From contig JAIXMN010000041.1 in the NCBI GenBank assembly GCA_025716815.1, forward strand, positions 1 to 64,000: DNA of 64,000 nt, in the 5' to 3' direction. The DNA is from Dichotomocladium elegans (Eukaryota; Mucoromycota; Mucoromycetes; Mucorales; Lichtheimiaceae). The notes under the pieces are model-generated. The model did no database searches, had not been told where the DNA came from, and saw only the letters and a program-made list of their open reading frames with translations. Below are positions 1,790 to 24,782 of the stretch, in pieces. The position numbers and the translations under genes are program-made. The first letter of the stretch is position 1. The number at the start of each line of letters is the position of its first letter.

Positions 1790-1791
1790 TA

Positions 1792-2868
1792 CAGGATTTT
1801 CAAGAAGAAGTTTGCGACAAGGATTAGTTGTTCGTTGCCGTATTTTTTAGTTCGTTATTGCTGAGAAAAGTTTGGGCATAGAAACTTTGGTTGTTGGTGA
1901 ATTGCGGCCCTGAATTTGGCCGGCAGCGGCTATTGAATTCGCAAAAAATCGTCGAGGTTTTTCGTTTTTTTCGTCTATCCAATTCGTCTCCCACAGCCCA
2001 GTTGTTCGGCAGCATTTCGAAGGTCGATGCCACATACAAAGATGTTGGATCCTGCAGTATTATTTTATCGTCAAGAGGATTCTTTTTTTTGGATTTGGTT
2101 GGCAAGGACATTCGCGCAAACAATGCAAGTTCTCGGTTTTAGTAATCCCATTTGGTTACTGCCAAGTCGCATTTGGAACGCACTTTTATTTTGTTCGCAT
2201 GGCATCTCTATATATTTCGCAATCTCTCTTGCCGCACTTAACTCGAACATTTGTGCGATTAAAAGAAAAAGCGGCGAACAGTGGGAGACTGGCAGCTGCT
2301 GAAAGGTACCAAACTCGGCATGCTGTATTCTTTTCTTGTCATCCGTCGCCATTTCTGTGCAGCAAAGCTGGCAATTGGCCATTGGCTAGTTCGCCACAAT
2401 GTAAGAATAAGATGGGTGAATGGCGTGAACGTGGAGGTAAAAAGGAGACAGTGATTGTCTGGAAAATAAAAGAAAGCCTTTAAAGCTTAAAAACAAAACG
2501 GGAGAGAATGGTACAGTAGGAGAATAAAAATGGGCGCGACGCGGTTAATTGAAATATCGATGCGCTTCCCACCCTTTTTCTGGTAGTGCGCCCTCGCATT
2601 ATACTTTTGAACATGTGCAAAACGAACCATCCTGCTCTTAATTAAACACAAGCTATTGTGAGGAAAAAGAGAAATGGCAACAACTTCTCCGAGATTCTGC
2701 TTTCTCACGAAAACCATGCTGCTACTCTATTTGCCGCTTCTTTCGACACATGTGTGCACCCTTGTCTTTTGCAAACGTAAGCCTTGACATCGACAGGACC
2801 TTGCTGGTCTTCAACAAAGTCAAGCTGCGGTTAATGTCTAGATCTAATGTAAGAATAGCATTCGCTGG
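1792..2868 (+). repeat. Element A left TIR
   Basis: Inverted copy of 4362-5439; homology stops just after GCATTCGCTGG near 2868. Confidence 0.85.
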
Positions 2869-3799
2869 TCAAGGTGCTGATTGCAATAATGTCGAGCAAA
2901 GTAACTTACTAGTTATTATAAAGAAATACTCAATGCCATACCGTGCTACTATGAACGCGTTTCCGCCTTTTTAAATGTCTCTGAATATGGCACATATCAC
3001 GAATATACGGAAAATCGCGTGATTTCGAAGCACAATGTGACATTGATCATGGAGATCCCTGAAAAGAGACGGTGAATGCTTATGCTTTAAACGTCTCTCG
3101 CATTCCGCTTAAACATATGCTTCTTTTATACCCCGTTCAACATCGAAATAGCAGCAGGAATCAATGAAATCATTCATATACTTGGTCGATTCGATCATGG
3201 ACGTATGAAAGGTAATACCCTTGATGCGTCAAGGCGCAATCTATGTCAATGAGGGAAAAAAGATTAAGGGAGAAACCCTATTCAAAAAATTAGCTAATTA
3301 ATCGTCGGCATAGGTCTTGGCAGAACTTCCTGTGTTGGCCGACAGAAGAAATGATAGTAAAAGGGTAGCCTATCCAGCTATACAGCATTTGCAATATGTG
3401 GGGTAAATGGATAAGCTGGTGAAATTTGCGGACATTGAGGATGGATAGCTTTATCTGTACATATCGCTCTACTTGGTACTTAGCTATACTGAGTAACGAA
3501 GTTAAAAGTACTGGAAAGAAGTGATATTTTTGAGAATGCGATAGTTGAAGATCAGTTTGTGCATTCTGTGATCAAAAAGGATGGTTGGGGCGCTTGTGAT
3601 TTAGTAATAAGTGCATAACGGACGCCTGTTAGAGCATGTCATCTGACAGGGTGATTAAGCAGAACTGCTAAGCCTATTCACCGTTCGTGGTGGTGTTGTG
3701 TTACAAAAGCTAGAACGAATACTTACTCATAATAAATGTGAATTTCTTTAACGCCTTTTTCCCCTCCAAAGTTTTCCTTATACTCTTGTTCACCATAAA
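2869..3799. other. Element A interior, non-coding
   Basis: No supported coding region. The stretch lies upstream of the truncated gene and probably holds its promoter region. Confidence 0.5.
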
Positions 3800-4361
3800 A
3801 TGGCTTCCTCAAAATCCAACAAAATCTCAGCACGCACTGTTGCCAAGGTCACGAAACACCATTATCGACCAGTAATCCCTTCGCAGACACGCTTGCAACT
3901 TGCGCATAGGTGTTCCCCAGTCGTTACGCGACGTTTGACCAGATCTATGGCATCACTAGATCTTCGTGGAGATGGTATGAGTAAGACTGGTCGTCCATTT
4001 CGAGAAAAGGGCAATGATCCATATCAGAAACTCTACAAATACAGCCTCATTAAAAGACAGACATAGCTGATACCCAGGCCAGTCCTATGAGTGAGGACGA
4101 TGACGATGACGATGGCGATGACGTGAACGACGATGATGAAGGCGGTGAAGAGATCGATCTCGAAGGAGGAATGTTGGATAGGATGAATGATTTGGCGTTC
4201 ACCAAATACCGCTTCCAGGTCGACGAAACGGAAAGCGATTGCAGTACTGGCAGTGAAAGTGATAGTGATGAGGCCAATACCAACTACGACGCTCGTAGAG
4301 ACAGTACTGTGATAGAAATCTCCCAATCAGCTCGACAAATGTCAACCTTGCGGTCGCTGTT
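3800..4361 (+). pseudogene. Truncated 5' part of a D-type transposase-like gene
   Basis: Exon 1 runs from ATG 3800 to 3974, followed by a GTATGAG donor. A candidate acceptor (ACATAG) ends at 4066, and exon 2 continues in frame at 4067. The second exon starts with a run of Asp/Glu (SEDDDDDDGDD), followed by a YRF..DE.ESD segment and SLLPA. The same series appears in the element D protein (29,578 downward: YRFAADESESD, SLLPAIRA). The frame then enters the right TIR near 4362, so the helix-turn-helix and catalytic regions are absent. By analogy with element D this encoded the acidic N-terminus of a transposase-related protein. The intron placement is my inference; the truncation is plain from the sequence. 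Confidence 0.6.
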
Positions 4362-5439
4362 GCCAGCGAATGCTATTCTTACATTAGATCTAGACATTAA
4401 CTGCAGCTTGACTTTGTTGAAGACCAGCAAGGTCCTGTCGATGTCAAGGCTTACGTTTGCAAAAGACAAGGGTGCACACATGTGTCGAAAGAAGCGGCAA
4501 ATAGAGTAGCAGCATGGTTTTCGTGAGAAAGCAGAATCTCGGAGAAGTTGTTGCCATTTCTCTTTTTCCTCACAATAGCTTGTGTTTAATTAAGAGCAGG
4601 ATGGTTCATTTTGCACATGTTCAAAAGTATAATGCGAGGGCGCACTACCAGAAAAAGGGTGGGAAGCGCATCGATATTTCAATTAACCGCGTCACGCCCA
4701 TTTTTATTCTCCTACTGTACCATTCTCTCCCGTTTTGTTTTTAAGCTTTAAAGGCTTTCTTTTATTTTCCAGACAATCACTGTCTCCTTTTTACCTCCAC
4801 GTTCACGCCATTCACCCATCTTATTCTTACATTGTGGCGAACTAGCCAATGGCCAATTGCCAGCTTTGCTGCACAGAAATGGCGACGGATGACAAGAAAA
4901 GAATACAGCATGCCGAGTTTGGTACCTTTCAGCAGCTGCCAGTCTCCCACTGTTCGCCGCTTTTTCTTTTAATCGCGTAAATGTTCGAGTTAAGTGCGGC
5001 AAGAGAGATTGCGAAATATATAGAGATGCCATGCGAACAAAATAAAAGTGCGTTCCAAATGCGACTTGGCAGTAACCAAATGGGATTACTAAAACCGAGA
5101 ACTTGCATTGGTTGCGCGAATGTCCTTGCCAACCAAATCCAAAAAAAAGAATCCTCTTGACGATAAAATAATACTGCAGGATCCAACATCTTTGTATGTG
5201 GCATCGACCTTCGAATTGCTGCCGAACAACTGGGCTGTGGGAGATGAATTGGATAGACGAAAAAAACGAAAAACCTCGACGATTTTTTGCGAATTCAATA
5301 GCCACTGCCGGCCAAATTCAGGGCCGCAATTCACCAACAACCAAAGTTTCTATGCCCAAACTTTTCTCAGCAATAACGAACTAAAAAATACGGCAACGAA
5401 CAACTAATCCTTGTCGCAAACTTCTTCTTGAAAATCCTG
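4362..5439 (-). repeat. Element A right TIR
   Basis: Inverted copy of the left arm with several substitutions and small differences. It ends AAAATCCTG at 5439, followed by TA. Confidence 0.85.
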
Positions 5440-5479
5440 TACCGGCCACTCACTACATCACACGTCAATCCCATACATA

Positions 5480-5807: not shown

Positions 5808-5809
5808 TA

Positions 5810-7754
5810 CAGGATTTTCGGTTGGCTACCGGCCAAAGGTAGGAAAGAAATAATAGGGTGGAGTATTTTATCGAGAAGAGCAAGAAAAGAATAATTGAAG
5901 CAATAATATTTCAAGAAGCGGAAGGGAAGAATTCCGGAAAGAACTACCTCTATGTCTATAGTATGAAAAAGGATTATGGTTGGAGAAAGGAATTGCCGGT
6001 TGAAGTATGCGTTTCGCCTTGGGAAAGCACCTTGTGTCTATAGTCCGATTTGTATTCCCTGTTTTCATTTTTGTGGTGGAAAGTTGACGAAAGGAATAGT
6101 CCAAGTGAAGATAATTTTCGCGGCACCAATGATTCAGACCAATGGGTGGCATTTTTCGTAGCACAGACGTCGTAGTCTATAGGAAAATATATTAGCGTCA
6201 ACAACGGTATTTTCGCGGGTAGGATTAAATTCGCATGCTGCTACCTTTATTCGTAGGGTGCACGATATTCATCAGAAGAGAGCCTTTATGCACGCAAACG
6301 CTTGACAGTTTTACTATAAAAGGACATATGAGGAAGACACTTCTTGAAAGAGACAAACAGCCGCATACCTTTTGTACGCTTTGAAAATAAAGAGCACAGG
6401 GCGCTTTTTTGCGAAAATTTTTTTTTGGCATCTCTTCCACTCCTATTTTTTATTTTGTTTTTTTTTCGCAATGCCTGAACACGAATCTTCCGCCTTGGAC
6501 GGTCTCCGCTCGACATTTAAAGATTGACATCTGAAAGCCCCCAAACAAACTCAGAAGTGTTCAGCTTATATCTTCTGATGCGTAGTGTGGTGAAGAATGT
6601 CGCGTAAACAGCAGCTCTCTACGATTTTCTCACTTTTCTCGCAAATCCGCGGTTGTTAATCGTCGCAGAAGTACAGCACTGTTTTATCACCCTGCTCAGA
6701 AAGATCACTAAGCAGATGTCGAGATCTGTTGTTCTGCCCTTCGGCAGCACACGCACAGGTAAAAGATTAGAACTCTCGCTTGCAATACAGACGAATGGCG
6801 GTAAGAAGTTACGACGAGATCGCGCGAAAAGAATAAAATCAAGATAGATTGAAAAAATGGACTGCTTCCTTGCATGACGAACGGGTGGTTTGCTCTGAGC
6901 AGGTCATGGCAAATATAAAGCGCTTGTTATTCTAGGGTGTTGAGGAGCAGTAAGTGCACGGATCAACAGAGGTCACATCAATATAGATGCGGTTTTTTGA
7001 ATTGTGAGGAAATCGGGTTTTGGATTTTACTCCAGAGGATCATTCTGTGATGGTCAGTAATTATTGGTATCCATCCAGCACTTACCTCGCATGTGCATCT
7101 TTCTCGGCCCCAACAAGCTAAGAGTATGACTAGGGCAGTAAGTCGAAATAGTGCTGAGCGTCGCTTTACCTTCCTGGATATGTTTTGCCGGCTATGAGCG
7201 CAAACCAGCTGCCTTTGTCCACATAGCGAGTGTGCTTATGCGGTCTTGAGGTGTCGCAGATCACGGCTAGGCATCATAGACACCTCCATAGAGAACAATA
7301 GAAAGCGAAACAGTATTCGTTTTTTGAGGATCATCTGTAACGTACTCCCCGCTAATGGAGACAACAAAAAATAAATGCGTCCCTGCTCTCCATGGAAGTC
7401 TTCGTCGTTCTCTTATCCACCAATCTTAAACCACACACTAACATTTAACCATAATAACATTAATGCCAGTCATCCCACCCCAAACACTCGTTTACATCCA
7501 CACTGCTTCGAACGGAAAAAGTCGGTTGCTACTGTTGCCTGATCAGCTGTGTGAAGCTACATTTAAGGGTCAAGATCGCGTAAAATATCGTCTGTCAAAG
7601 AGTAGACTACACTATCCAGGAGTGGTATCAGTTCAGTCCGTTTGTGCGCGCAGGACTATTAGTAAGTATGGTTTCGGGTCATGGCATCAGGCTGCCAACC
7701 AGTGAGCCCCAGGCGTCTTGCTAGAGCAAGCATAGTTAAATGCATTTCAAGTAG
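5810..7754 (+). repeat. Element B left TIR
   Basis: Matches the inverse of 13,132-15,076. The arm contains no supported gene; its open frames are mirrored in the other arm. The homology ends just after GCATTTCAAGTA. Confidence 0.9.
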
Positions 7755-7856
7755 TTAGTCCTGCTGGATAACTCGAAAGGGAAGAAAAATAAGGTTTGAA
7801 TGCACAAAGCTGCGTTTAAGATTCTAAGCTCTTTCTATCTTATTCTTATTTTTACT

Positions 7857-9389
7857 ATGACTGATACCAACGCCACAAGTGCTCGAGTTCCGGCCCGTCG
7901 GTCAGCCAGGATTTCGAAGCGAAAACATAGGGCTAGCACGGTAAACCAAGCGACTACTCTGGTTCGAGTTCCTAACTTGGTTGATGCAATAAGAGATCTT
8001 CAGTTGGGTCAGTAGATAAAGCGGCTTATAGCTTTAGATCGGGGCACCTCTATGCTTATGCCATCTACATTAACACTACAATTAGGTAATGAGGAACCAG
8101 AAGAATCGCTAGGAGGCGTCATGGTCGAATATTGCAGCGATCTGGACGAGCAGGAAGATGAGGATATGGCGGATTGTGAGGAAGTCGATGCAATGGACAC
8201 TGACGACGTACAGGACATTCCGCCGCGATCACTCATGGCTGCAATTCGTCTACGCATGCAAGAGCTTGGTAGTCCTTCACCTACGCCAAGCCGTGCCATT
8301 TCGCGACGTGACAGTGTCGCTAATTCTTCCTCCAATGACACAGAAAAGAAAGTTCGGCGGCGCTGCACAGTTTCAGAGAAGTTGCTTGTTGCCAATGCAG
8401 TTCACGACAAACGCCTTTCTCACGCTGCTGTAGCCAAGCTTTTTGGCATTGGACGATCCACTGTCGGCGACATTTTGAAACAATACGCTCGCGGAGACCT
8501 CAGCGATGACGCCGAATCGAAAAGAGTCGCAGCAAGATCGGGAGGTGAATGGAAGATCACTGATGAAGGGAGTACCTACATCATTGAATTCCTTGCCAAG
8601 TACAACTCTGCTACCCTCCGGCAGATCCAGACCGCATATCTTGACAGATTCGATGTCCAACTCGGTCTATCGACCATCTATGACCATTTGAGAAGACAAT
8701 GCAAATTGTCTCTCAAGCGAGCTGTATTTTATCCCGAGAAACGAAACGCTGATGAGACTAAAGACAAGCGACAAGCGTATGTGAAGGAATGGATCTCGAG
8801 CGGCATCCTGGAATATGAGAGAAATTGCGTATTCATCGACGAGGCATCGTATAACCTGTCGATGGGACGCAATTATGCATGGTCTTTAGTTGGCCAGCCA
8901 GCTAGGGTTATGGTCAAGAAGATGAGGTACCAGTCTCGCACGCTCCTAGCTGCCATATCGCACGAAGGACTTGTAGGTGCATCAATCAAGGAAGGTAAAG
9001 GTGGTACCAAAAGTCCCGACTTCCTTGCATTCCTTGAAGAGGTGATGGATGATCTTGACGGCAAAGAACGACGAGGGTGGTATCTTGTATGCGACAACGC
9101 GTCGATCCATAAGACAAAGATCATTCAGGAGGCAGTGGAGAAAAGGGGTTATCATATGGTGTACTTGCCGCCATACTCACCATTCCTCAATCCAATTGAG
9201 GAATTTTTCTCCAAGGTAAAAGCAGTGTTTCGACGAGTGGCAGTAGGCCTTGACCCGGAGAATGCACCGCTGCTACACGAGCGTCTGGCGCAAGCAATTG
9301 CTGAAGTCCGCCCGGAAGACTATGCTGGATGGGCTCGCCACGCAACCACGTTCTTTGAACCGTGCCTTGGACGTGAGGATATGCTGTAG
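7857..9389 (+). CDS. DDE transposase of element B (484 aa, spliced)
   Basis: Exon 1 is 7857-8007, a 78-nt GT-AG intron is 8008-8085, and exon 2 is 8086-9389; the junction restores ..LQLG|NEEPEE. Exon 1 encodes a basic segment (SARISKRKHR). Exon 2 starts acidic, then has a helix-turn-helix (AAVAKLFGIGRSTVGDILKQ) and a catalytic domain of the IS630/Tc1 type. The triad is intact: D302 in VFIDEAS, D387 in LVCDNASIHK and E422 in LNPIEEFF, giving DD34E. The start at 7857 is chosen because the same ATG and exon length (151 nt) occur in element C. It presumably binds the TIRs and cuts and inserts the element at TA. Compared with C, the GRP.KIT linker segment is altered here. The paralogue gene starts about 260 bp downstream on the same strand. 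Confidence 0.88.
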
Positions 9390-9649
9390 TTTTTCCCTTG
9401 CCTCTTATATATATATATATAAAGGTTATCTTCATACTTTGTTTACCCATTCTGCTTTGGTTTTGTAAATCGGAGTACTGTAGGGGAATAGTTACGGTTC
9501 CATACACCATCTGTTAGAACTATCAGTGTAACGTAAGCCTCAGACGACTGTATCACCGCTTTAAAAAGACAGCGATCGATGTTAGTAAAAGTTTGCTTCT
9601 CTTTAGACAGCATCATCCCTAGTACCATTTTCGAAAGCTACGAACTGCC
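9390..9649. other. Spacer between the two transposase genes of B
   Basis: Contains a short (TA)n run at 9406-9422 and presumably the terminator of the first gene and promoter of the second. No coding potential seen. Confidence 0.5.
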
Positions 9650-11037
9650 ATGTCTTCTTCCAACTCCACCCCGAATAACACCAGCAAGCATGCAGAGCCC
9701 AGTCTTGTTCGGCAGCTGTCCAGGTCTATGTCGGACATGACAATCGATGAACCTGACTTCAGCGGTATATTAGTGAAGCCCTGACATATTTGGCGTGTTT
9801 TGACTGTATATTTACAAGTAGACTTTGATATTGCTGAAAGCGACGTAGCGGACGTGTCGTCTAACCAGCAAGGTAACGAAAGGACCTTTACGAATCGGCA
9901 ATGCTGGCAACATATTGATATTATGAAGTAGAAGCAGAAGCAGAAGCGACAGCTGGACCGAGGACAACTAGTCGGAGAAAGGACAAGGGCAAGGCCCCCA
10001 GGGCTAAAGTTTATGAAAGGATGTCGTACGAGCGGCGGATGCATGCCCTTTCCGCCATGGTGGATACCTGCGCTTCGCCTTCCACCGTTGCCGCGCGTAT
10101 CGGTGTTAGTGTAAGCACTCTGAGGTCCATCCGCAAGCGGTATCATGAGGAGGGACGGATTGAGCCCCTTCGGAGAGGACGAGCAAGTGGTGCATTGCTG
10201 GGTCCTGATCAGGCAAAGATCATCATCAATGCCATGGATCAGAACTTTGCTTTGTCTATTCCCGAGGCCGAGAGCCTCCTAAAGGAAGCGCACGTCCGGA
10301 GCGGAGAGTTTGGAGATGCTCAGTATGCTAAGAGCTCTCTTGTTACCTTCCTACGCAAGAACTGCAAGCTGGCTATGCGCAGGTGCATTTCGTTCCCAGG
10401 CGAATCTGGACCTACCTCGGAACAGCCTGCTTCACTTGCGCTTGAGGACGTGCAACGCAGGATGGAGAGGGCCCACTTACTCCCGACCGCAAACTGCGTT
10501 TTCGTTGGTGAAGCAGCCTGGTACACCAACCCGAACAAGGTCTGGACCAAGAAGCAGCCCACCAAGGTGCATATGGAGAGCGATAATCTGGTGCCCAGCC
10601 AATCACTCTTCTTGGCAATTAACTCGTGCAGCATTGTGGAGATGACTGTCCGCGCCCCTGCTCTTCGGACGACCGAAGCGCACTTACTGGCTTTCACCAA
10701 GAAAGTCATTGACCATTTCGCCGATGTCCCCGGAGAAAACCCGAAACTGGTGTTCGATGCGATGCCAGAAAGCACGGCGAACAAGGTTACCGCTCTGGCA
10801 ATGGACTATGGCTTCATTGCCTTCTTCCTTCCGCCTCTTGCGACAGGCACGCTAAACCCAACCGAGGCGATTTTCGCCAAAATTCAGCAGTTATGCCCCC
10901 GGCATAAGGAGATTAATGAGAGAGATAGAGTCTCGTCTCGACTTCTGGCTACCGCGAGTAGCTTGCCAATCGAGACATTTTTAGATGCTATCTGTGAAAC
11001 TTTTGGCACCAATATTCCTAGCTCGCCTAGCCAGTAA
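9650..11037 (+). CDS. Catalytically altered transposase paralogue of element B (423 aa, spliced)
   Basis: Exons are 9650-9764, 9822-9872 and 9932-11,037; introns of 57 and 59 nt both start GT and end TAG. The N-terminus is Ser/Thr-rich (MSSSNSTPNNTSK, SMSDMTID), then acidic, then basic, then a helix-turn-helix (SPSTVAARIGVSVSTLRSIR). The C-terminal half follows the layout of the DDE transposase: VFVGEAAW, LVFDAMPES, LNPTEAIF. The first catalytic Asp is Gly (G248), while D331 and E367 remain. The protein should therefore not cut DNA in the usual way, yet it is conserved with element C, including exon lengths of 115 and 51 nt. Likely roles are DNA-binding partner, regulator or structural subunit of the active transposase; this is inference. 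Confidence 0.85.
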
Positions 11038-12330
11038 ATCTCGTCTCTTTTGCGTGTCTTCCAGATTTGATCCAACTTATCCGTCGCTTACTCTCGATTA
11101 ATTTTCCATGTCCTTGCTTTAGCTATGGGGTTCTGCTCATAGATGCACGCTATTCTTGCGTAGTTAGTGCTTGTACACGGAGAACCATTCAGGATAATCC
11201 AAACCATGGAAATGAAATCAAAGCAGGTCATCGGCATCGGCATTTATTTGAACATCTGCAGATAAACATATACAGCGCCATACCGATACAAAATAACCAA
11301 ATGATACAGTACATATCATTGATCGTTGGTCGTATCTTTGTGATAGAAACTTGTTAAATCAGCAATACATCACATGCGATTTGCATTGGTTTGCTTACCT
11401 TCGTAAGAATTGCAATATACATGTAACATCCTTATGCCTCAGATTATAAGGTCCAAAGGTATGTAACAAGGGGCACATCTTGAACCTGGGCGAGAATTTT
11501 TTGCCGAAGTGCATAATCCTATCTGATAAGCAATTTCTGCATAGCACCAAATGAGAGTTAGCAGCAGGTATATTTTACTGGGAAAGACTAATAGGGATGC
11601 ATACAGGAGGTAGAGAAACTTACAAAGGAAATGAAACATGTCGCCAAGAATGTTATAAGACCATGCGATGTGCTTATGAAGCAATGCTGGAAAGGACGGG
11701 AGCGAAATTACTGTAGAGATTTGAGATATGGAATTGCGCTTATTTTCTTGGACAAGCTACCGCGGTAGTCATCTACAAGATATAATGTAGCACTAACAAC
11801 CGCCTAGGACGCGGAAAATAGATATGAAGATGGTAGGATATATTGCGAGATAATCAGCGAGAAAATAATACCGTTCGCAAAGGATTGACCATGCAGTAGA
11901 TCTACGGAATCACAAAAGCGGAAGACCTACGCGTCAAAACAGTCGGAAAATAAATTATTATGGTAAGTGATTGCGGTCAGAATGAGCTCGATGTTAACGC
12001 CAGCAATGCTTCATCAAAAACTCTTTAATTGCAAAGCGGCGCAAATCATACAAGAAGAATGAATCGTTTATAAACAATTGCCCTTGATGGTAAAGTTTAT
12101 ATGAGATTATCCAAGGAAAGACACATTCCCAATATCCAGCTTATCCCATTACCGTTTGCTAACATTAGAGGTATGAATCGATATTGCGTTCGTCAAAGAC
12201 AAACACTCTTAGCTCTGTTATACATTCCAATATCCATAGATAAGCTCCTACGGTGAGGTCCCTAATACTTGTGAAAGTGGATATTAACTGGCAAGATGAC
12301 AAGGTGTTATTGCTTACAGACATAAGACTT
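11038..12330. other. Element B interior, no gene found
   Basis: About 1.3 kb of AT-rich sequence between the convergent second and third genes. Open frames are short and motif-free. Element C has no equivalent stretch of this length. Confidence 0.5.
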
Positions 12331-12853
12331 TCAATGTTCCTTACCCTCTACAGCTGGAATATTTACAGACGAAAGTAAGTACCATCTGTTCAGCAAATCA
12401 GATAATTTGATCGTCGAGTAAGTTTTAGGATGAGCGATTTTCCTCTTTTTCACTAAAGGCATGAAAGACAAAAGGCACCCGTAATCCTCGCAAGGTCTTT
12501 TCCACTTTCTTGAGCGTTTGAAAGTCGTTTCATCACATGTGATAGTGGAATCTTTCGATACATAATCAACAATTGAATCCATAGGAGGATCAGGAGTGTA
12601 GCATGGTTTATAAGAGGTAATTAATGAGCATTGCGAAAAAACATAATGTGAAATACTAACTTGACGAATCTTCCAGGGTCATTCGTTCAAACATAACATG
12701 CAAATGAACAGGCTGTCGTCTTTCTTGCTGCTTCAATCGGGTTTGCTGAATCTTCTTAATGGCAGCGACCAGCGAGAGCAAATCACTAGATGCAGAGGAG
12801 CGGCTCATGGATTCCGCCCTGGTTACTGCTAATTTTCGTGTTGATTTAACCAT
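12331..12853 (-). CDS. Small two-exon accessory protein of element B (137 aa)
   Basis: On the minus strand, exon 1 is 12,853-12,661, the intron is 12,660-12,552 (GTTAGT...AAAG), and exon 2 is 12,551-12,331. Exon 1 encodes a basic, Gln/Arg-rich helix (LVAAIKKIQQTRLKQQERR) followed by VHLH..FER.TLE. Exon 2 encodes FMPL.KKRKI, which resembles a nuclear localisation signal, then TYSTIKLSDLLNRW. The same protein, with an identical 193-nt first exon, occurs in element C at 19,381-19,872. I do not recognise the family. It faces the right TIR on the strand opposite the two transposase genes. A DNA-binding or transposase-accessory role is possible but not shown by the sequence. Confidence 0.7.
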
Positions 12854-13131
12854 TATACTAGAAAAGAGGTCTCAAAGAACTCGTCTTGTTGCACAACCTG
12901 TAATTTCTCCTAGTGGTGTTTCACGGGTTTTCCAATGTGGCTGCACTAAGGTTTCATGTGCTGCAATGAGTCGGAGAGAACCTATTGCGTTTCTAGTGTC
13001 ATGGTAGACGAGAGTTGGCCATCCAGCTCGTCTAATTGAGTCGGAGCGAGCGCATATCCCGGCGTATGAGGGTCTGAATTTCTGCTATATATGTATTACA
13101 TGAAGAGGATGATGCTGAATGCTTTGAGTTA

Positions 13132-15076
13132 TTACTTGAAATGCATTTAACTATGCTTGCTCTAACAAGACGCCTGGGGCTCACTGGTTGGCAGCCTGAT
13201 GCCATGACCCGAAACCATACTTACTAATAGTCCTGCGCGCACAAACGGACTGAACTGATACCACTCCTGGATAGTGTAGTCTACTCTTTGACAGACGATA
13301 TTTTACGCGATCTTGACCCTTAAATGTAGCTTCACACAGCTGATCAGGCAACAGTAGCAACCGATTTTTTCCGTTCGAAGCAGTGTGGATGTAAACGAGT
13401 GTTTGGGGTGGGATGACTGGCATTAATGTTATTATGGTTAAATGTTAGTGTGTGGTTTAAGATTGGTGGATAAGAGAACGACGAAGACTTCCATGGAGAG
13501 CAGGGACGCATTTATTTTTTGTTGTCTCCATTAGCGGGGAGTACGTTACAGATGATCCTCAAAAAACGAATACTGTTTCGCTTTCTATTGTTCTCTATGG
13601 AGGTGTCTATGATGCCTAGCCGTGATCTGCGACACCTCAAGACCGCATAAGCACACTCGCTATGTGGACAAAGGCAGCTGGTTTGCGCTCATAGCCGGCA
13701 AAACATATCCAGGAAGGTAAAGCGACGCTCAGCACTATTTCGACTTACTGCCCTAGTCATACTCTTAGCTTGTTGGGGCCGAGAAAGATGCACATGCGAG
13801 GTAAGTGCTGGATGGATACCAATAATTACTGACCATCACAGAATGATCCTCTGGAGTAAAATCCAAAACCCGATTTCCTCACAATTCAAAAAACCGCATC
13901 TATATTGATGTGACCTCTGTTGATCCGTGCACTTACTGCTCCTCAACACCCTAGAATAACAAGCGCTTTATATTTGCCATGACCTGCTCAGAGCAAACCA
14001 CCCGTTCGTCATGCAAGGAAGCAGTCCATTTTTTCAATCTATCTTGATTTTATTCTTTTCGCGCGATCTCGTCGTAACTTCTTACCGCCATTCGTCTGTA
14101 TTGCAAGCGAGAGTTCTAATCTTTTACCTGTGCGTGTGCTGCCGAAGGGCAGAACAACAGATCTCGACATCTGCTTAGTGATCTTTCTGAGCAGGGTGAT
14201 AAAACAGTGCTGTACTTCTGCGACGATTAACAACCGCGGATTTGCGAGAAAAGTGAGAAAATCGTAGAGAGCTGCTGTTTACGCGACATTCTTCACCACA
14301 CTACGCATCAGAAGATATAAGCTGAACACTTCTGAGTTTGTTTGGGGGCTTTCAGATGTCAATCTTTAAATGTCGAGCGGAGACCGTCCAAGGCGGAAGA
14401 TTCGTGTTCAGGCATTGCGAAAAAAAAACAAAATAAAAAATAGGAGTGGAAGAGATGCCAAAAAAAAATTTTCGCAAAAAAGCGCCCTGTGCTCTTTATT
14501 TTCAAAGCGTACAAAAGGTATGCGGCTGTTTGTCTCTTTCAAGAAGTGTCTTCCTCATATGTCCTTTTATAGTAAAACTGTCAAGCGTTTGCGTGCATAA
14601 AGGCTCTCTTCTGATGAATATCGTGCACCCTACGAATAAAGGTAGCAGCATGCGAATTTAATCCTACCCGCGAAAATACCGTTGTTGACGCTAATATATT
14701 TTCCTATAGACTACGACGTCTGTGCTACGAAAAATGCCACCCATTGGTCTGAATCATTGGTGCCGCGAAAATTATCTTCACTTGGACTATTCCTTTCGTC
14801 AACTTTCCACCACAAAAATGAAAACAGGGAATACAAATCGGACTATAGACACAAGGTGCTTTCCCAAGGCGAAACGCATACTTCAACCGGCAATTCCTTT
14901 CTCCAACCATAATCCTTTTTCATACTATAGACATAGAGGTAGTTCTTTCCGGAATTCTTCCCTTCCGCTTCTTGAAATATTATTGCTTCAATTATTCTTT
15001 TCTTGCTCTTCTCGAAAAAATACTCCACCCTATTATTTCTTTCCTACCTTTGGCCGGTAGCCAACCGAAAATCCTG
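13132..15076 (-). repeat. Element B right TIR
   Basis: Inverted, near-identical copy of 5810-7754; a single residue difference (S/N) is seen in one mirrored open frame. Ends AATCCTG at 15,076, then TA. Confidence 0.9.
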
Positions 15077-15146
15077 TAATTAGAGCATTCCATTCCACCA
15101 ATCCCTTGCAATTAACATTTGCCATTGACATTCAGCCACATTAGCA

Positions 15147-16023: not shown

Positions 16024-18013
16024 ATGGCACCATTATCCAAACGTCAAAAGCTTTTGAAGCAGAGACAACGAAATGAAACAGGGCAATTGGCTCCTCAGCC
16101 ATTTCCTGTTGGAGAGACCGAGATGGTAGAGGATCTGATCCCAGATGTTGAAGATTGGGATGTTTTGGGGCTTTCTGGAGATGCAGTCGCTGCTGCTGCT
16201 GCCCTCCCATTGGTGTGGAATGGGAAAGCCGATAGCCACCTGCGAGGCACATATTCCAAGGACTCTCGGATAACTATCTGGCGCCATAGAAAGGAGATGG
16301 AAATCGCCGCAAGCATGTCGCAGAAGCTTTCCGCTTTTGGTTTTACCCGCCAGCAACGTCAGACGAACCAAGACGATCGATATGAGGAAGAGCTTATTGC
16401 TGGAGCTATCAATAGGCTGGAAGAGCTTATAAGACCTCGAATTTCAGCATCCAATGCTGGAGATTCCATCAGCCCTTTCCAGTTGTGTAAGCTTCAAGCA
16501 GTACACAGGTACCTTGTGTATCGTCTTGCTGGTAAGAAAGCAATTGCTGCGTCGCAGGACGCTGCCAAAGATATCTGGCATACACCCTCGTAAGATTACT
16601 GCCCCAAGGTTATCCGTCACTGGGCAAAAGAATTTCTTCAATTTGGGATTGTATCATCTCACCGCCAAGGAATACACAGCAAGAGGATTTCGGTTTTGTC
16701 TGATGAGCACCTCTCGGACAACATCTGCAAGTGGATTCGTGAACAGTTACCTGACAAGCGAAATATCATTAGTATATTGAAGTTTGTCAATGAATCAGCA
16801 ATTCCAGATGTATTTGGTGTACCTGGAAGTGTGAGTGAAACAACCCTTTGGCGATACATGAACGAATGGGGCTTCTTGTTTTGGCGTAACACCAAAGACG
16901 TCTATTATGACGGCCATGAAAGGGAAGATGTCGTTGTGTACCGTAAGGAATGGTCTCGACGCATGACGGCCTACCAGACAATGACAGAACACTTCGAAGG
17001 GGAATTGATGGACGAAGTTATACCACCAATTCTTGCACCCGGAGAAAAGATGCTGGTGATGGTAACTCATGATGAGTCGACCTTCTATGCCAATGATGGC
17101 AAGCAAGTTCTGTGGCTGGCAGCCGGCGAAACTGTAATGCGGAATAAGTGTCCTGGCATGTCGATTATGGTCAGTGAATTCCAGTGTCCATGTCATGGAA
17201 CAATGAGACATGGAGATCTTATCTCCCGACAATTCTTCGAAGCTGGCGCTGGGCGTGAGGGATACTGGACCAGTGAACATATGTTGCACCAACTGCAAAG
17301 CACCGTCATCCCGTTATTTGAACTATTGCATCCTGGTTGTAGAGCCCTGTTCTTGTTTGACCAGAGTAGCAATCACAATGCCTTTGCTGCAGATGCTCTT
17401 TTGGTTCAAAGGATGACAAAATCTGAGAAACGCATCGAAGAAGGCGAAAAGTACCGATTTCGGAATGGCTATTTCGTTGCAACAGGTCATGACGGTGCGC
17501 CAATGCATGTTCCTCAGAGCATGTACATAAAACGACATGAGAACATCAAGAAGCGTAAACATGGCCATACGATAGTCACCTCACAGAAGAAAGAAGTAGA
17601 ATACTTCAAAGGAATTGAAAGGATTCTGAAAGAGCGTGGACTTTGGTTTGATAAAGACCCTCACCGCCCCGACAAAGTATGGAGAATGGAGTGCAAAAAC
17701 GATGCGGCGGACGATGCAAAATGTTGCGCAAAACATTTGCTTGCAGCACAGCCTGATTTCACAGCGCAGCGGACGGCATTGCAGGAAGCAGTGGAGGATA
17801 GTGGCCATATATTTGAGCTTTATCCAAAATTCCATTGTGAATGCAATTGGATTGAATGCTATTGGAGCGCTGCAAAGCGTGAAGCTCGAGCACGGTGCGA
17901 CTATTCTTTCAAGAGTCTAAAAGAACATCTCCCGAGCTTCCTTGACTCAGTTTCTCCTCCAAACCAGACTCCCACAACAATCCGCCGATACTACAATAAG
18001 GCTTGGCGCTATA
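16024..18013 (+). pseudogene. DDE transposase of element X, with an in-frame stop and split by C
   Basis: The frame from ATG 16,024 (MAPLSKRQKLLK) is open to 18,013 except for a TAA at 16,591-16,593 (codon 190). After element C it resumes in frame at 24,676 and stops at 24,780-24,782, about 698 codons in all. The N-terminal third is a basic, helical, DNA-binding-like region. The C-terminal half has VMVTHDEST, ALFLFDQSSNH and CNWIECYW, which look like the D, D and E of a DDE nuclease. I recognise this as a type widespread in fungal genomes (the FD.S..H.AFA.DAL signature) but cannot name its superfamily with certainty; the TA target duplication fits an IS630/Tc1-related mechanism. The stop and the insertion make it non-functional unless the stop is a sequencing error. 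Confidence 0.82.
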
Positions 18014-19151
18014 CAGGATTTTCGGTAATTTACCGAGTAATTGAAGGAAAGAAATGTTCAAAGGTTTTTTCTTTTCGATGGACGAATGGAAAAGAATGGT
18101 TGAGTGTACATTTTATTCATGGGAGGGTATATGTATTTCGACTTCCCCTCTGTTTTATATGTTATAGAAGCAAAAAGAAGTAAGGGTGCGATTACTAAAG
18201 GTGTAGGGTTAAAGAAAGCAACTGACACTTGCAATTTGGATTTTCGCCACACAGAAGCAAATGAGTACCAGATAGCCGGTTCACTGTAAAAGTTTGTATT
18301 TTTTGGTCGTCAGATGGAAGATATCAATTAGTCCCCCGAATATTATTTTCGCAGTACCGGTTGCACAGATCCTTTGCGAGACCATTTTCATAGCATCGAA
18401 CTTGCACTGGGTACAAGAATATATTTGCACCTCTGGTGATTATTTTGGTTGGCAGGACCATGTTCATAGGATACTACTTTAATTTAATAGGGTAAAGAAT
18501 ATTCGTCAGTAAAGAGGATTTATGCACGCTATCGGTTGACAGCTTTTACTATATAAGGAGAGACAAGGAAGACGCTCCTTGGCAGAAGAAGGTCTTTGTC
18601 CGCTTTGAAAAGGGAAGGCACACGGCGGTTTTCGCAGAAAAAATTTTTCATGGTGGCCTTCCGCGTAATTTTTTTCCTTGGTCCTCTTCCGCGTAAGTAT
18701 TTTTTTTTCTTAATGCAACATCCACACAATTACACGGTCACCGCTACTGATGGTGAAGTCGCCGCCAAATATCCTGGTGCCAAGGAAAGATTGACGTTAA
18801 GACGGCATTTTGACGCGTAATATAGTCAAGACGATGAGCACCCTGCAGCTATACGTATTTCCATCGTTTGTAATCCGCGATTGGGTGACATTATTGCAGT
18901 ACCAAACCCTCTCTCTCCTCTCCCTGCTCTTAACGAGGCTTCCTTATGCAGACGTTAAGAAACTGCCTGCTGCTCTCTTACAACGCATCCAACAGACTTG
19001 GGACAGAAAGGAACGCGTACATACTGCAAAGAATGCGAATGGCAGCGTGGAAAAGATCATGCAGAAAAAAATAAAAACCGAGGTAATCTTTGGAAGGATT
19101 GAAAGCGATACGAGGATTTGAAAGAAAGGAATGGCGCATTGCGCGCCTACA
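18014..19151 (+). repeat. Element C left TIR
   Basis: Inverse of 23,536-24,673; homology ends at ..GCGCGCCTACA. No supported gene in the arm. Confidence 0.88.
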
Positions 19152-19380
19152 CGACGAACAGGCGGAATGCAGAGTATGGGTCACACATCGGACAAAACTC
19201 GGGGAACGGAGAGGTCAATCACTTTAGAATGGTGGGGAACAGAAGACTTTATAAAGTCAGCTGTATTCGATTATTCGTCATCTTCTGTTCTTTAACGGGT
19301 TGCCAGCGTTGCGGGGCTTTGGGCAGTGCGACGAATCCCCGGTGACTCTCAATAACTCCTTGCAGTTCTTTCCTCTCACA

Positions 19381-19872
19381 ATGTCGAAAACAAAGCAGAA
19401 ATCAACGGCAGTTAAGTTAAGGTCAACGAACGTTGGCTCTACGTCAGGTCACTTGGTGTCTCTCGTTACCGCCATCCGGAAAATTCAACAAAGCCGCGCA
19501 AGACAGCAGGAAAGACATCGGCGCGTCCATCTGCATGATTTATTCGAACGATTGACACTAGAAGGACCATCAAGTTAGTACGAAACAGAGCGCAATGTTC
19601 TGGTTGGTTCATTCATGTATTTATTTTTAAAAAAAGCAGCCGAATCCTCACAGAAAGGTCCCACCACCTCGTATGATGAAAGGACTTTACTGTCTCCGGG
19701 AAAGTCAAAAAGACAGGATGACGATTGCACATGTTGGCTCCCCTTCATGCCTCTAACAAAAAAGAGGAAAATCGAAAATTATGCTAGGACATACAGGACG
19801 ATCAAAATGTCTGTTTTATTGAGCGCATGGCAAGTGCTTGTATCTGTAGATATCCCTGCAGTAGCCGAATAA
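19381..19872 (+). CDS. Small two-exon accessory protein of element C (142 aa)
   Basis: Exon 1 is 19,381-19,573 (193 nt, as in element B), the intron is 19,574-19,636 (GTTAGT...AAAAG), and exon 2 is 19,637-19,872. It shares LVTAIRKIQQSRARQQER, VHLHDLFERLTLE, FMPLTKKRKI and TYRTIKMSVLLSAW with the element B protein; other parts differ. It is basic and Gln/Arg-rich with a KKRK-type possible nuclear signal. I do not know the family. Here it lies next to the left TIR and on the same strand as the transposase genes, unlike in B. Confidence 0.7.
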
Positions 19873-20206
19873 CAAGACTAGAGCTTCATCAGCGTCTTAT
19901 CCGCATGCTTTATTCACACTCGACCTACATTATTGTTTATCGCTATGAGACATGCGTTAGGCTCATGGGTCGTTCTTCATTCCGCATCAATAACAAGCCT
20001 TCATCGTTCTCACTTCTTTTCGCACTCTCGCCTCGATGCATTGATTATGCTTATAATACATTCCTTAACGATTCTTACAAATGGGGTAAATACACAAACA
20101 AATCATGAGATCCTTGAGAAGTGGTAGGGTTTAAACTCAACGCTTGCGTGTAATTCCAAGCGAGGCTGTTGCTTCTTCAACTATTCACCTAAAACCTTAC
20201 TTTACC
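19873..20206. other. Spacer upstream of the element C transposase
   Basis: About 330 bp between the accessory gene and the DDE transposase gene. Likely terminator and promoter sequence. No supported open frame. Confidence 0.45.
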
Positions 20207-21771
20207 ATGACCATTTCCAATAACAAAGGCGCTCAAATCTCAGCTCGTAGATCGGGTAGAATTGCGAAGCGAGAACATCGGGCAAGTGCAGTGAACCGAG
20301 CTGCTACTCAGATTAACGTCCCTAACTTGGCTCATGCTCTGAGTCAACTTCGGCTAGGTTTGTTATTTTTTCATGAGGATGCTCGAGACCTAGACATTTT
20401 CATCCTGATATTACAGACGTAACTATTAGAATTAGATAATGAGGAACAAGAGGAGTGGCTCGGTGGTTCTCGGTTGAATGTATCAGTGATCCTGAAGAGG
20501 AAGAAGAGGAGTCGAGAATGGCTGATGGCATTGACATGGACAGCAACAATGATAGCGAAGAAGACTCGGCCATGGATGTCGACAAAGTCGTTGATCGTCC
20601 GCCACGATCGCTGATGGCAGCAATTCGTATGCAAATGCAAGAATTTAACTGCTCATCGCCTTCCTCAAGCCGTGCGACATCAGTGCGTAGCAATGACACT
20701 GACTCTTTGCCTGCAAAAAGTAGAGAAAAAAAGACTCGAGTGCGTCGCACAATTGCTGAGAAACTGCTTGTTGTCAACGCCGTGTTTGACAAGCGCCTCT
20801 CCTACGCGGCTGTGGGCGAGCTTTTTGGAATGAGAACGTCAACTGTTTCCGACATTGTGAAGCAGTATTCCCGTGGGAAACTCAACGCTGATACTACAAG
20901 TGGAAGGGTTCCAACAAATGCAGGACGTCCCCAGAAGATCACTGACGAGGGTCATGCCTATATTGCAGAATTCGTTGCCTTGTATAACTCGGCTACCCTT
21001 CAACAAATCCAAACAGCATACCTTACAAAATTCGGGATCCAGCTTGGGATCACTACAATTTACGATCATTTGAGAAAGCAGTGTCAGATGTCGCTAAAGC
21101 GTGCTGTGATGTACCCAGAGAAACGCAATGCCGAGGAAACGAAGGAAAAGCGCGCCACATATGTCAAGGAATGGATTACATCCGGTATCCTTGACTATGA
21201 GAAAAACTGTGTATTTATCGACGAAGCGTCCTATAATCTTTCAATGGGGCGCAATTACGCATGGTCTAGAGTAGGCGAGCCTGCTCGCGTGATGGTTAAG
21301 AAGATGCGGACCAAGTCACGCACTCTTATTGCAGCGATTTCGTATGCGGGACTTTGTGGTGCATCCATCAAGGAAGGTAAAGGTGGCACCAAGAGCACTG
21401 ACTTTGTTGCTTTCCTCGAAGAGGTGATGGACGATCTTGACCGTAACGGACGGAAAGGGTGGTATCTTGTTTGCGACAATGCAGCGATACATAAGACTAA
21501 GATTGTTTGCGAGGCTGTGGAGAGTAGGGGATACCATATCGTTTACCTGCCTCCATATTCCCCATTCCTTAATCCGATTGAAGAATTCTTCTCAAAGGTG
21601 AAGGCGATATTTCGACGTGTAGCAGTTGGCCTTGATCCCGAGAATGCACCGATGCTACACGACCGCCTGACCCAAGCAATTGCAGAAGTCCGCGCAGAGG
21701 ATTATGCTGGATGGGCACGCCATGCAACTACTTTCTTCACTCCTTGCCTTGAACGTGAGGATATGCTTTAG
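20207..21771 (+). CDS. DDE transposase of element C, with an apparent 1-bp frameshift
   Basis: Exon 1 is 20,207-20,357 (151 nt, as in B), a 78-nt intron is 20,358-20,435 (same length as in B), and exon 2 starts at 20,436. It opens with the frame of DNEEQEEWLGG, but by comparison with B one base is missing near 20,470, after which the main frame (VECISDPEEEEEE...) runs to 21,771. The remaining protein is closely similar to the B transposase: helix-turn-helix AAVGELFGMRTSTVSDIVKQ, a GRP.KIT linker, and an intact DD34E triad in VFIDEAS, LVCDNAAIHK and LNPIEEFF. Nucleotide differences from B are mainly at third codon positions. The missing base could be a real mutation or a sequencing error. Confidence 0.82.
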
Positions 21772-21997
21772 TTTCGCTCTTTTTGGTCTTTTTTTTTTCT
21801 TTTTCTACTGTTATAAGAAAGTTTGCATACTGCACATCGAAGAACGGAATAGACATATCCACTAGAACAAAAGTGTGATGTTAACTTCTTGAGGACTGTA
21901 TCGCCATCTTAAAATTACAGGAGCCAAGTTCATAAAAGCTTGCTTCTTTCAGATAGCACAAACTTTACCCCGAATTCTTGAAAAGCTACCAATTGCC

Positions 21998-23413
21998 ATG
22001 TCTTCCTCGAACGCTACTGCAGTTAACACCAGCAAGCATGCCGAGCCTAGGCTCATTCGCCAGCTTTCAAGAACAATGTCCGACATGACAATCGACGACG
22101 CTGATTCCAATGGTATTTCATGTTTCTAAAGTGATTTGGATAACATACAGTATATTGAATGTGTACGAAGTAGAAGCTATCGCTCTCGGGGACAACGAAG
22201 CTGAAGAGTCGCCATCCCGTCAAAGTAAGACATCGTGCCATGAATCTAAGGTACTGACAATTTACTATTATTCATCTTAGGTGGCGAAATCATGGAAGAA
22301 GATCAGGACCCACAGGAAAGAACAAGACCTCTGGCGAGAGCAACTGACAAAAGGAAGCAGCAGGTGAAAACTTCGAGGGCTAAGACCTACGATATTATGT
22401 CGTACGAGCGTCGAGTGCATGCTCTTAATAGCATGCTGGACACCAGTGCGGGCCCTTCCACCATTGCTGCACGATTGGGCGTCAGCGTGAGCACGCTGAG
22501 ATCCCTCCGCAAGCGATACTATGAGGAAGGGAGAATTGAGAATCTCCGAAGAGGTCGTTCCGGCGGCGCAGAACTTGGCCCTGATCAGGCAAAGATAATT
22601 ATCAGGGCAATGGATCAGAATCCCGCGCTTTCTGTTTCTGAGGCCCGTAGCATCTTGGAAGCTGCGCAGGTGACGAGTGGGGAGTTCGGCAGCGGCAAGT
22701 ACGCCGAGACAACTCTTGTCTCGTTCCTTCGCAAGAACTGCAAGGTCGCGATGCAGCGGTGCCTCTCGTATCCAGGTGAAGCTAGACCCGCTCCAGAGGA
22801 ATCTGTTGCGACTGTCATTGAAAACGTACGTCAGAGGATGGAGCGGGGACATGTTTCCCCTGAAACGAATTGTGTCTTCATTGGTGAAGCTGCTTGGCGT
22901 ATCCGGCCGAGCAAGGTTTGGAACAAGGCACCGCCTAAAAAGGCACAAATGGAGAATGACGACCGTGTGCCTTCTCATTCCTTCTTCTTGGCAATGAACG
23001 CGTACAACGTCGTCGTGACAACCGTGCGCTCCCCTGCTCTCCAAACTACAGAAGAGCATATGATGGCCTTTGTCAAAAAGGTCATTGATTATTTCGACGA
23101 TGTCCCTTGCGAGAATCCGAAGCTGGTATTTGACGCAATGCCAGATACAACGGCGAATAAGATCACGGCTTTGGCAATGGAGTACGGCTTCATTGCATTC
23201 TTTCTCCCTCCTCTTCAGTCTGGGACGTTGAACCCGGCAGAGGCCGTCCTCGGCAAAGTCCAAGAGTTGTGCCCGCGGCACAAAGAAACTGGTGACAGAG
23301 ATCGCGTCTCTCAGCGGCTGGAAGCTACAGCCAGAAATCTGCCCAGTGAGACGTGCTTGAATGCTATTCGTGAGGCATTCAGCTTCATCACGGTCCCCTC
23401 TCCAAGCGAATAA
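21998..23413 (+). CDS. Catalytically altered transposase paralogue of element C (432 aa, spliced)
   Basis: Exons are 21,998-22,112 (115 nt), 22,174-22,224 (51 nt) and 22,281-23,413; introns of 61 and 56 nt. First and second exons have the same length as in B. The layout is a Ser/Thr-rich N-terminus (SMSDMTID in B, TMSDMTID here), an acidic stretch, a basic stretch, a helix-turn-helix (GPSTIAARLGVSVSTLRSLR), then VFIGEAAW, LVFDAMPDT and LNPAEAVL. Gly257 stands where the first catalytic Asp should be; D340 and E376 remain with the same spacing as in B (35 residues between). The frame is fully intact, while the active transposase upstream carries a frameshift. Role is unknown; a non-cleaving partner of the transposase is my inference. 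Confidence 0.85.
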
Positions 23414-23535
23414 ACAGCGCTTTTCCTTCTTGGATGGTTTTGGATTCTGTTTCATTACCATCACTTTTTCGTCAATGATTTCGTTTGATTCTCAGTATTC
23501 TGCTCAGTACTCGTAGATTATTTTCACCATGCTGA

Positions 23536-24673
23536 TGTAGGCGCGCAATGCGCCATTCCTTTCTTTCAAATCCTCGTATCGCTTTCAATCCTTCCAAAGA
23601 TTACCTCGGTTTTTATTTTTTTCTGCATGATCTTTTCCACGCTGCCATTCGCATTCTTTGCAGTATGTACGCGTTCCTTTCTGTCCCAAGTCTGTTGGAT
23701 GCGTTGTAAGAGAGCAGCAGGCAGTTTCTTAACGTCTGCATAAGGAAGCCTCGTTAGAGCAGGGGAGAGGAGAGAGAGGGTTTGGTACTGCAATAATGTC
23801 ACCCAATCGCGGATTACAAACGATGGAAATACGTATAGCTGCAGGGTGCTCATCGTCTTGACTATATTACGCGTCAAAATGCCGTCTTAACGTCAATCTT
23901 TCCTTGGCACCAGGATATTTGGCGGCGACTTCACCATCAGTAGCGGTGACCGTGTAATTGTGTGGATGTTGCATTAAGAAAAAAAATACTTACGCGGAAG
24001 AGGACCAAGGAAAAAAATTACGCGGAAGGCCACCATGAAAAATTTTTTTCTGCGAAAACCGCCGTGTGCCTTCCCTTTTCAAAGCGGACAAAGACCTTCT
24101 TCTGCCAAGGAGCGTCTTCCTTGTCTCTCCTTATATAGTAAAAGCTGTCAACCGATAGCGTGCATAAATCCTCTTTACTGACGAATATTCTTTACCCTAT
24201 TAAATTAAAGTAGTATCCTATGAACATGGTCCTACCAACCAAAATAATCACCAGAGGTGCAAATATATTCTTGTACCCAGTGCAAGTTCGATGCTATGAA
24301 AATGGTCTCGCAAAGGATCTGTGCAACCGGTACTGCGAAAATAATATTCGGGGGACTAATTGATATCTTCCATCTGACGACCAAAAAATACAAACTTTTA
24401 CAGTGAACCGGCTATCTGGTACTCATTTGCTTCTGTGTGGCGAAAATCCAAATTGCAAGTGTCAGTTGCTTTCTTTAACCCTACACCTTTAGTAATCGCA
24501 CCCTTACTTCTTTTTGCTTCTATAACATATAAAACAGAGGGGAAGTCGAAATACATATACCCTCCCATGAATAAAATGTACACTCAACCATTCTTTTCCA
24601 TTCGTCCATCGAAAAGAAAAAACCTTTGAACATTTCTTTCCTTCAATTACTCGGTAAATTACCGAAAATCCTG
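23536..24673 (-). repeat. Element C right TIR
   Basis: Inverted, near-identical copy of 18,014-19,151. Confidence 0.88.
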
Positions 24674-24675
24674 TA

Positions 24676-24782
24676 TTGAGGCTTATTCCAATGACATGGA
24701 TGCTAATGAGGCTGCAGAGCATGTTAGAAAGTTCTCAACTCATATCTACAAGAGCCATCGTCGTGTTGGCTTACATGACTAG
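24676..24782 (+). pseudogene. Element X transposase, C-terminal end
   Basis: The last ~35 codons of the X transposase (EAYSNDMDANEAAEHVRKF.. to TAG at 24,780-24,782), cut off by element C. With one TA the frame joins ..AWRY to this segment without a gap. The ending around KSHRRV is typical of this family's C-terminus as I recall it. Confidence 0.8.

Follow-up and report, generated by a model that had tools for sequence, protein, structure and literature searches.

Two-gene Tc1/mariner-type transposons of Dichotomocladium elegans pair a transposase with an old, constrained and apparently non-catalytic paralogue

Introduction

Tc1/mariner cut-and-paste transposases are usually regarded as single-protein machines. 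In the mucoralean fungus Dichotomocladium elegans (assembly GCA_025716815.1), the first 64,000 nucleotides of contig JAIXMN010000041.1 (positions 1-64000 of our contig C59, hereafter the window; the genome comprises 39.4 Mb in 122 contigs) hold two transposons, B and C, in which a transposase gene is followed by a second, transposase-like gene, here called the partner, that lacks the first aspartate (Asp1) of the catalytic triad Asp1-Asp2-Glu. Why would a mobile element keep such a gene? An original prediction made from this DNA read the pair as a catalytic transposase accompanied by a non-cleaving paralogue under purifying selection. Here we examine how widespread, how constrained and how old the arrangement is, and weigh what the partner might do.

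Results

The transposases of B and C carry the motifs VFIDEAS ... LVCDNA ... LNPIEE with an Asp2-Glu interval of 34 residues, and both match the Pfam domain DDE_3 (E values of 5.1e-26 for B and 4.3e-26 for C); against helix-turn-helix (HTH) models, the B transposase scores above the cut-off and the C transposase below it. Each transposase gene model is one of several that leave the frame open (one of five for B, one of three for C). TA flanks both ends in all four window elements inspected, as in Tc1/mariner elements, and B and C start TA-CAGGATTTTCGG with TA on either side. Judged by TA ends, triad and domains, B and C are Tc1/mariner elements (IS630-Tc1-mariner, DD34E).

In our gene models the partner ATG sits 260 nt (B) or 226 nt (C) past the transposase stop, and a partly conserved stretch precedes the gene. 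The two partners read VF(V/I)GEAAW ... LVFDAMP ... LNP(T/A)EA, with an Asp2-Glu interval of 35 residues. The proposal that their first two exons are of identical length, 115 and 51 nt, holds to the extent that such models exist in both genes; it is not proven, as they make up 8 of 73 open splice combinations in B and 3 of 75 in C, and equal exon lengths are best called possible.

The arrangement recurs across the genome. Six-frame searches (E <=1e-5) returned at least 72 matches for the B partner, at least 109 for the B transposase and at least 90 for a fusion open reading frame (ORF) described below, with protein types mixed in each set; the stretches around these matches make up our census area, in which ORFs were sorted by two profiles. 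Within it, 100% (19/19) of the long transposase ORFs, defined as at least 430 residues with VFI(D/N)EAS and excluding short or broken copies, are followed on the same strand by a partner-type ORF, and none (0/19) is a solo long transposase of the two-gene lineage. The order claimed for B and C, a transposase and then a paralogue with VF(V/I)GEAAW in place of VFIDEAS, was borne out, and a partner-type ORF comes after the transposase in all 19. The distance between the two was 473-901 nt in 18 of the 19 and 12.3 kb in the remaining one (on contig C75); four partners were cut by a stretch end, decayed, split or frameshifted, and one transposase was frameshifted. Two long transposases of a distant DD34E family (VFLDESGF) lacked any partner-type ORF in the 1.5 kb flanking each side. 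Profile sorting placed C42:64525 and C31:604644 closer to the single-gene family.

We then compared the catalytic sites. The transposase alignment holds 28 rows, two of them from the more distant VFLDESGF family and one, left uncounted, without the catalytic region; Asp1 and Asp2 are present in 27/27 rows each and Glu in 23/27, the four exceptions having a truncation or frameshift at this position. Among 36 partner rows, which include many near copies and three fusions, Asp1 is replaced in every one (Gly in 25, Ala in 8, Ile in 3), and no row has a complete triad. The partner Asp2 position holds Asp in 30 rows, Asn in 4 and Ser in 1, with 1 frameshifted, and the Glu position holds Glu in 27, Asp in 4 and Arg in 3, with 2 frameshifted; fragments, among them those on C68, C38, C55:195782, C13:1038k, C19 and C93 and short copies on C101, C46, C73, C69, C56 and C59 were left out of this alignment. 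The predicted retention of Asp2 and Glu 35 residues apart therefore stands for the B and C partners and fails for the family as a whole. We rejected the idea that these two residues are conserved for function, since both are replaced in several partner rows; the one universal partner feature at the site is the loss of Asp1. On the simplest reading, Asp1 would have been lost first, and the remaining site would then have drifted in several lineages.

An AlphaFold model of the B partner (9919-11034; predicted local distance difference test score, pLDDT, 77.5) resembles Metnase and Mos1, with the RNase H-like catalytic-domain fold and HTH region of Tc1/mariner transposases. As modelled, the partner keeps a DNA-binding region with two HTH motifs together with the RNase H-like fold.

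The B and C partner ORFs differ at 27, 19 and 55% of first, second and third codon positions (372 codons; 62% amino acid identity), in agreement with the predicted excess at third positions. Their ratio of nonsynonymous to synonymous divergence (dN/dS, Nei-Gojobori) is 0.10, but dS is saturated at 2.6 and we relied instead on less diverged pairs, with dS of 0.27-0.99. In nine such partner pairs, three of them involving a fusion copy, dN/dS was 0.14-0.38, well below 1 and consistent with the purifying selection originally proposed; bootstrap 95% ranges for three pairs were 0.18-0.35, 0.12-0.24 and 0.10-0.19. In matched elements the partner gave 0.25, 0.17 and 0.14 where the transposase gave 0.15, 0.13 and 0.13, and the partner is somewhat less constrained in all three. 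By region, the values for three pairs were 0.156, 0.129 and 0.103 in the HTH part and 0.32, 0.092 and 0.084 in the RNase H part, the latter being as constrained as the former in two of three pairs, while the N-terminal tail was laxer (0.44-0.58). Near-identical partner copies (dS under 0.12) gave higher values of 0.29-0.57; a raised dN/dS among such copies is usual after insertion. As a transposon copy is presumably constrained mainly through those copies that spread, the low values on deep branches suggest a role of the partner in the spread or survival of the element.

The history of the two genes was reconstructed from 41 proteins, 11 of them partners, under an LG+C20 mixture. A single branch with support of 100/99 separates the 11 partners from all the other proteins. 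Independent origins of the dead gene, modelled by forcing the B and C partners together with the B and C transposases, or those of lineages D, E and F likewise, were rejected by approximately unbiased (AU) tests (p-AU 0.011 and 0.025), with the caveat that the groups were chosen after the tree had been viewed and that the long partner branches may attract each other. The single partner clade and the rejected alternatives together point to one origin of the dead gene, before the two halves of the element family split. The partner clade may branch either inside or outside the two-gene transposases (p-AU 0.22). The original prediction had named a dN/dS near 1 and randomly decayed duplicates as outcomes contrary to its interpretation; neither appeared in this genome, where the partners form one clade with a shared Asp1 loss and regularly follow the transposase, and its interpretation is overall supported.

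In a tree of 21 pairs, the distant half of the partners attaches among the near-zero branches in the C group (supports 24-67), a placement that we read as rooting noise, and we therefore used distances instead. Across ten lineages, transposase and partner distances were closely correlated (r 0.974; 0 of 20000 permutations as high), and correlations within the two halves were 0.96 and 0.94; there, 3 of 120 orderings, counting the true one, did equally well. The partner mostly evolves faster, with about 78-85% difference between halves against 57-66% for the transposase; the exception is the pair E32-F77 (22 against 23% different).

Some copies have lost part of the transposase. The minus-strand ORF at the right of element C (Table 1) was considered as a third partner and rejected: relative to the related element on C77, 1674 bp are missing between two matching blocks, and about 151 residues from the N-terminal part of the transposase, including the HTH, continue in frame into the partner. 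This window copy stops about 40 residues early. Other fusions, seen as rows of the six-frame searches, are open frames of 512 codons on C55, C57 and C92 and broken on C94 and C72; among fusion copies outside the window, full stretches were read for C55 and C94 only. At C56:175997, about 1.4 kb is deleted in the transposase, and the partner is intact and identical to that on C72. These copies, which trace to few independent deletions, hint that derivatives retain the partner rather than the transposase.

The elements also carry a record of their spread. B and C share the tip sequence CAGGATTTTC, adjoining TA at both ends, and the tip pattern TACAGGATTTTCVR has 509 matches genome-wide, compared with one for a reversed control. 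Element B has near-identical relatives elsewhere; among three copies, transposases differ at 1-2 of 457 residues and partners at 0-1 of 372. These tips and copies show that the family spread in the recent past, if not later, and from them we infer that the elements are probably active today. Many of the 100 tip places listed are paired in opposite orientation, about 305-357 bp apart, the pattern expected of short non-autonomous copies, and elements resembling miniature inverted-repeat transposable elements (MITEs) appear abundant. Many of these are about 355 bp long among the tip places listed.

The terminal repeats of B (99.85% identical arms of nearly 2 kb) seem very long for Tc1/mariner. 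Between B and C the arms match only in the first 44 bp and in one 170-bp block that lies 447-617 bp inside the tip and contains a TATA-like stretch (window 6254-6424 and 18488-18648). With counterparts in the right arms of both elements, the block could promote transcription from each end towards the interior, which on the right would run antisense to the partner.

Table 1. Coordinates of the elements, genes and repeats discussed, in window positions
Feature	Position	Strand	Size and structure	Basis
Element B, two-gene Tc1/mariner-type, including adjoining TA	5808..15078	+	about 9.27 kb	arms and TA/CAGGATTTTC ends
Element B, left terminal inverted repeat	5808..7753	+	1946 bp	arm comparison
Element B, DD34E transposase gene	7857..9389	+	484 residues; exons 7857-8007, 8086-9389	DDE_3, HTH, triad
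Element B, partner gene (Asp1 to Gly)	9650..11037	+	exons 9650-9764, 9822-9872, 9929-11037	alignment, splice model
Element B, right terminal inverted repeat	13133..15078	-		arm comparison
Element C, two-gene transposon, including adjoining TA	18012..24675	+	about 6.66 kb	arms and TA ends
Element C, left terminal inverted repeat	18011..19151	+	about 1.14 kb	99.6% identity with right arm
Element C, DD34E transposase gene	20207..21771	+	492 residues; exons 20207-20357, 20444-21771	DDE_3, triad
Element C, partner gene (Asp1 to Gly)	21998..23413	+	exons 21998-22112, 22174-22224, 22281-23413	alignment, splice model
Element C, right terminal inverted repeat	23536..24676	-		arm comparison
Fusion ORF of a related element, partner-type, deletion-derived	28184..29599	-		two-block match to C77 element
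Element A, same tip motif	1790..5441	+	1083-bp inverted repeats; N-terminal coding remnant only	arms, tips
MITE-like short non-autonomous element, same tips	31710..32078	.		arms, tips

Element C splits a long ORF of another protein (16594-18012 and from 24675), whose frame apparently resumes past the right end; judged from translations of the two flanks, the interrupted frame fits TA counted once. In element B, the roughly 2 kb between the partner and the right repeat (11040-13130) contains no ORF of at least 120 residues in the ORF list. Farther along the window, positions 37800-58000 hold a tandem run of near-identical long ORFs, reverse-transcriptase-like and by eye of the long interspersed nuclear element (LINE) type.

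Beyond this genome, a transposase search of a 5.8-billion-protein collection found 197 proteins among 8000 candidates. Among the 120 of these that were listed, the nearest named relatives come from Mucorales, with Rhizopus, Absidia, Mucor and Circinella represented and several annotated as Tc1-like transposase; Asp1 is Asp in 118/120 and a gap in 2/120, Asp2 is Asn or His in 6/120, and no partner-like protein is among them. Five proteins (sources 'lgn' and 'ena') adjoin the two-gene transposases in the 41-protein tree. No partner homologue was found in the collection or in a scan of viral contigs, by searches whose word filter hides distant relatives (8000 candidates yielded no match, though the same profile gives transposases in hand about 150 bits), and the transposase had no match in the viral-contig scan. 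In the literature searched, whose coverage leaves out most subscription journals, we found no described element with a dead transposase paralogue, in keeping with the original statement that no family of this architecture was known.

Discussion

Our comparisons show that an old and constrained relative of the transposase, non-catalytic by its residues, travels with the catalytic one, and we infer that it takes part in transposition or in its control. We favour, with a probability of about 0.5, a partner that is a required non-catalytic subunit. The first gene would supply the catalytic transposase, and the second a relative whose first metal-binding Asp was lost once, before the lineages split, and which has been kept since. 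The partner would bind the element ends or the transposase as an architectural subunit of the productive complex, for example by bridging the unusually long inverted repeats or by joining a heteromeric complex in which catalytic subunits occupy the cleavage sites, and copies without it would fail to spread. Candidate binding sites are the shared 170-bp repeat block and the partly conserved stretch before the partner gene. This reading is favoured because spreading copies should tend to discard a pure repressor, because the fold is constrained and because the distances of the two proteins co-diverge.

Several observations weigh against a required subunit. The deletion copy at C56:175997 and the fusions keep a partner without the catalytic domain, so the partner is not strictly tied to the transposase, and shorter or broken transposase copies with no partner detected nearby exist (for example C85:48105, C64:20014 and C59:97918). 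Constraint is uneven: the RNase H region is laxer than the HTH in the pair B59-B64 (0.32 against 0.16), and dN/dS of the partner reaches 0.38 in the pair B64-B48. Host-level selection on self-control could also yield low dN/dS. Mechanistically, a single subunit of the Hsmar1 dimer cleaves both strands of an end, and a dimer that contains a dead subunit stalls after cutting one end (PMC5714172); a simple catalytic/dead dimer would stall likewise, and a larger complex or separate DNA binding would be needed, in which the partner sits away from the catalytic pair, perhaps on the long inverted repeats.

The main rival is a built-in repressor that competes for the ends or poisons mixed dimers, limiting copy number and host damage. 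The stalled Hsmar1 dimers speak for it, and competition for binding sites limits Hsmar1 as well; self-control of Hsmar1 has been ascribed to the transposase alone (PMC3687335). Retention of the DNA-binding region and fold without catalysis fits such a role, as do deletion derivatives that keep the partner and drop the transposase catalytic domain. A trans-acting brake should, however, be easily lost from spreading copies, yet partner-type ORFs accompany all 19 long transposases at low dN/dS, and the tip matches and near-identical B copies indicate a family that has spread, at least recently; we consider a repressor unlikely, though it deserves to be taken seriously. A transcription or silencing-avoidance factor, binding promoter-like blocks in the inverted repeats and setting the expression of both genes, would be in line with repeats of B and C that share only the 44-bp tip and the TATA-like block, and it agrees with the low dN/dS of the HTH region (0.10-0.16). 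In two of three pairs, constraint on the RNase H region matches that on the HTH, for which a pure DNA-binding regulator would have no use, and we hold this role to be improbable.

Less room is left for a partner without function or for one that still cleaves. The view that it is a neutral or decaying duplicate hitchhiking with the transposase draws on broken copies (one stop in the C55 copy, and those on C38, C68 and others) and by the higher dN/dS between near-identical copies. The nine deeper pairs contradict a neutral rate, the tree gives a single origin, and frames have stayed open across ten lineages at identities down to about 15%, which makes mere decay very improbable. Cleavage by the partner through another arrangement of metal ligands could draw on Asp2 and Glu, present in both window copies and in most partner rows; with Asp1 replaced throughout, and with several open frames in which Asn, Ser, Asp or Arg stands in for Asp2 or Glu, we give it hardly any credence.

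Non-cleaving proteins derived from transposases, such as the Tn5 inhibitor and the KP-type repressors of the P element, restrain transposition, but these are truncated products of the transposase gene itself or come from copies with deletions, unlike the anciently diverged separate gene described here. En/Spm, Mutator and PIF/Harbinger elements encode an accessory protein beside the transposase, which to our knowledge is not a dead transposase paralogue. With other DD34E members of Tc1/mariner the two-gene elements have in common the TA ends, the DD34E domain (DDE_3) and the HTH region; the second, dead transposase-like gene and inverted repeats of 1.1-1.9 kb set them apart. The Tec/TBE elements of ciliates come close in having a DD34E Tc1/mariner transposase, more than one ORF and very long inverted repeats (about 700 bp), but the second ORF of Tec is a site-specific recombinase rather than a dead transposase paralogue, as described in PMC7325037.

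A functional parallel may lie in Paramecium, where PgmL proteins without a complete triad can form complexes with Pgm (PiggyMac) and are essential, as reported in PMC6143343. There, too, catalytic and non-catalytic relatives of a transposase occur together, joint action being a proposal in our case. Pgm and the PgmLs are domesticated host genes derived from PiggyBac, whereas the present proteins have Tc1/mariner domains, show no PiggyBac ancestry and belong to a mobile element. If the favoured reading of a required subunit holds, the pair may work like Pgm/PgmL without belonging to that set. The fuller proposal, an obligate pair of neighbouring catalytic and dead paralogues that have co-evolved ever since a single ancient duplication, as a mobile counterpart of Pgm/PgmL, is tentative and falls a little short of even odds.

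With a dead paralogue kept through ten lineages, one can ask directly if a eukaryotic transposon may depend on a transposase subunit without catalytic activity, and if transposons come with a brake of their own. The two-gene family may also represent a possible route to mixed active/dead complexes such as Pgm/PgmL.
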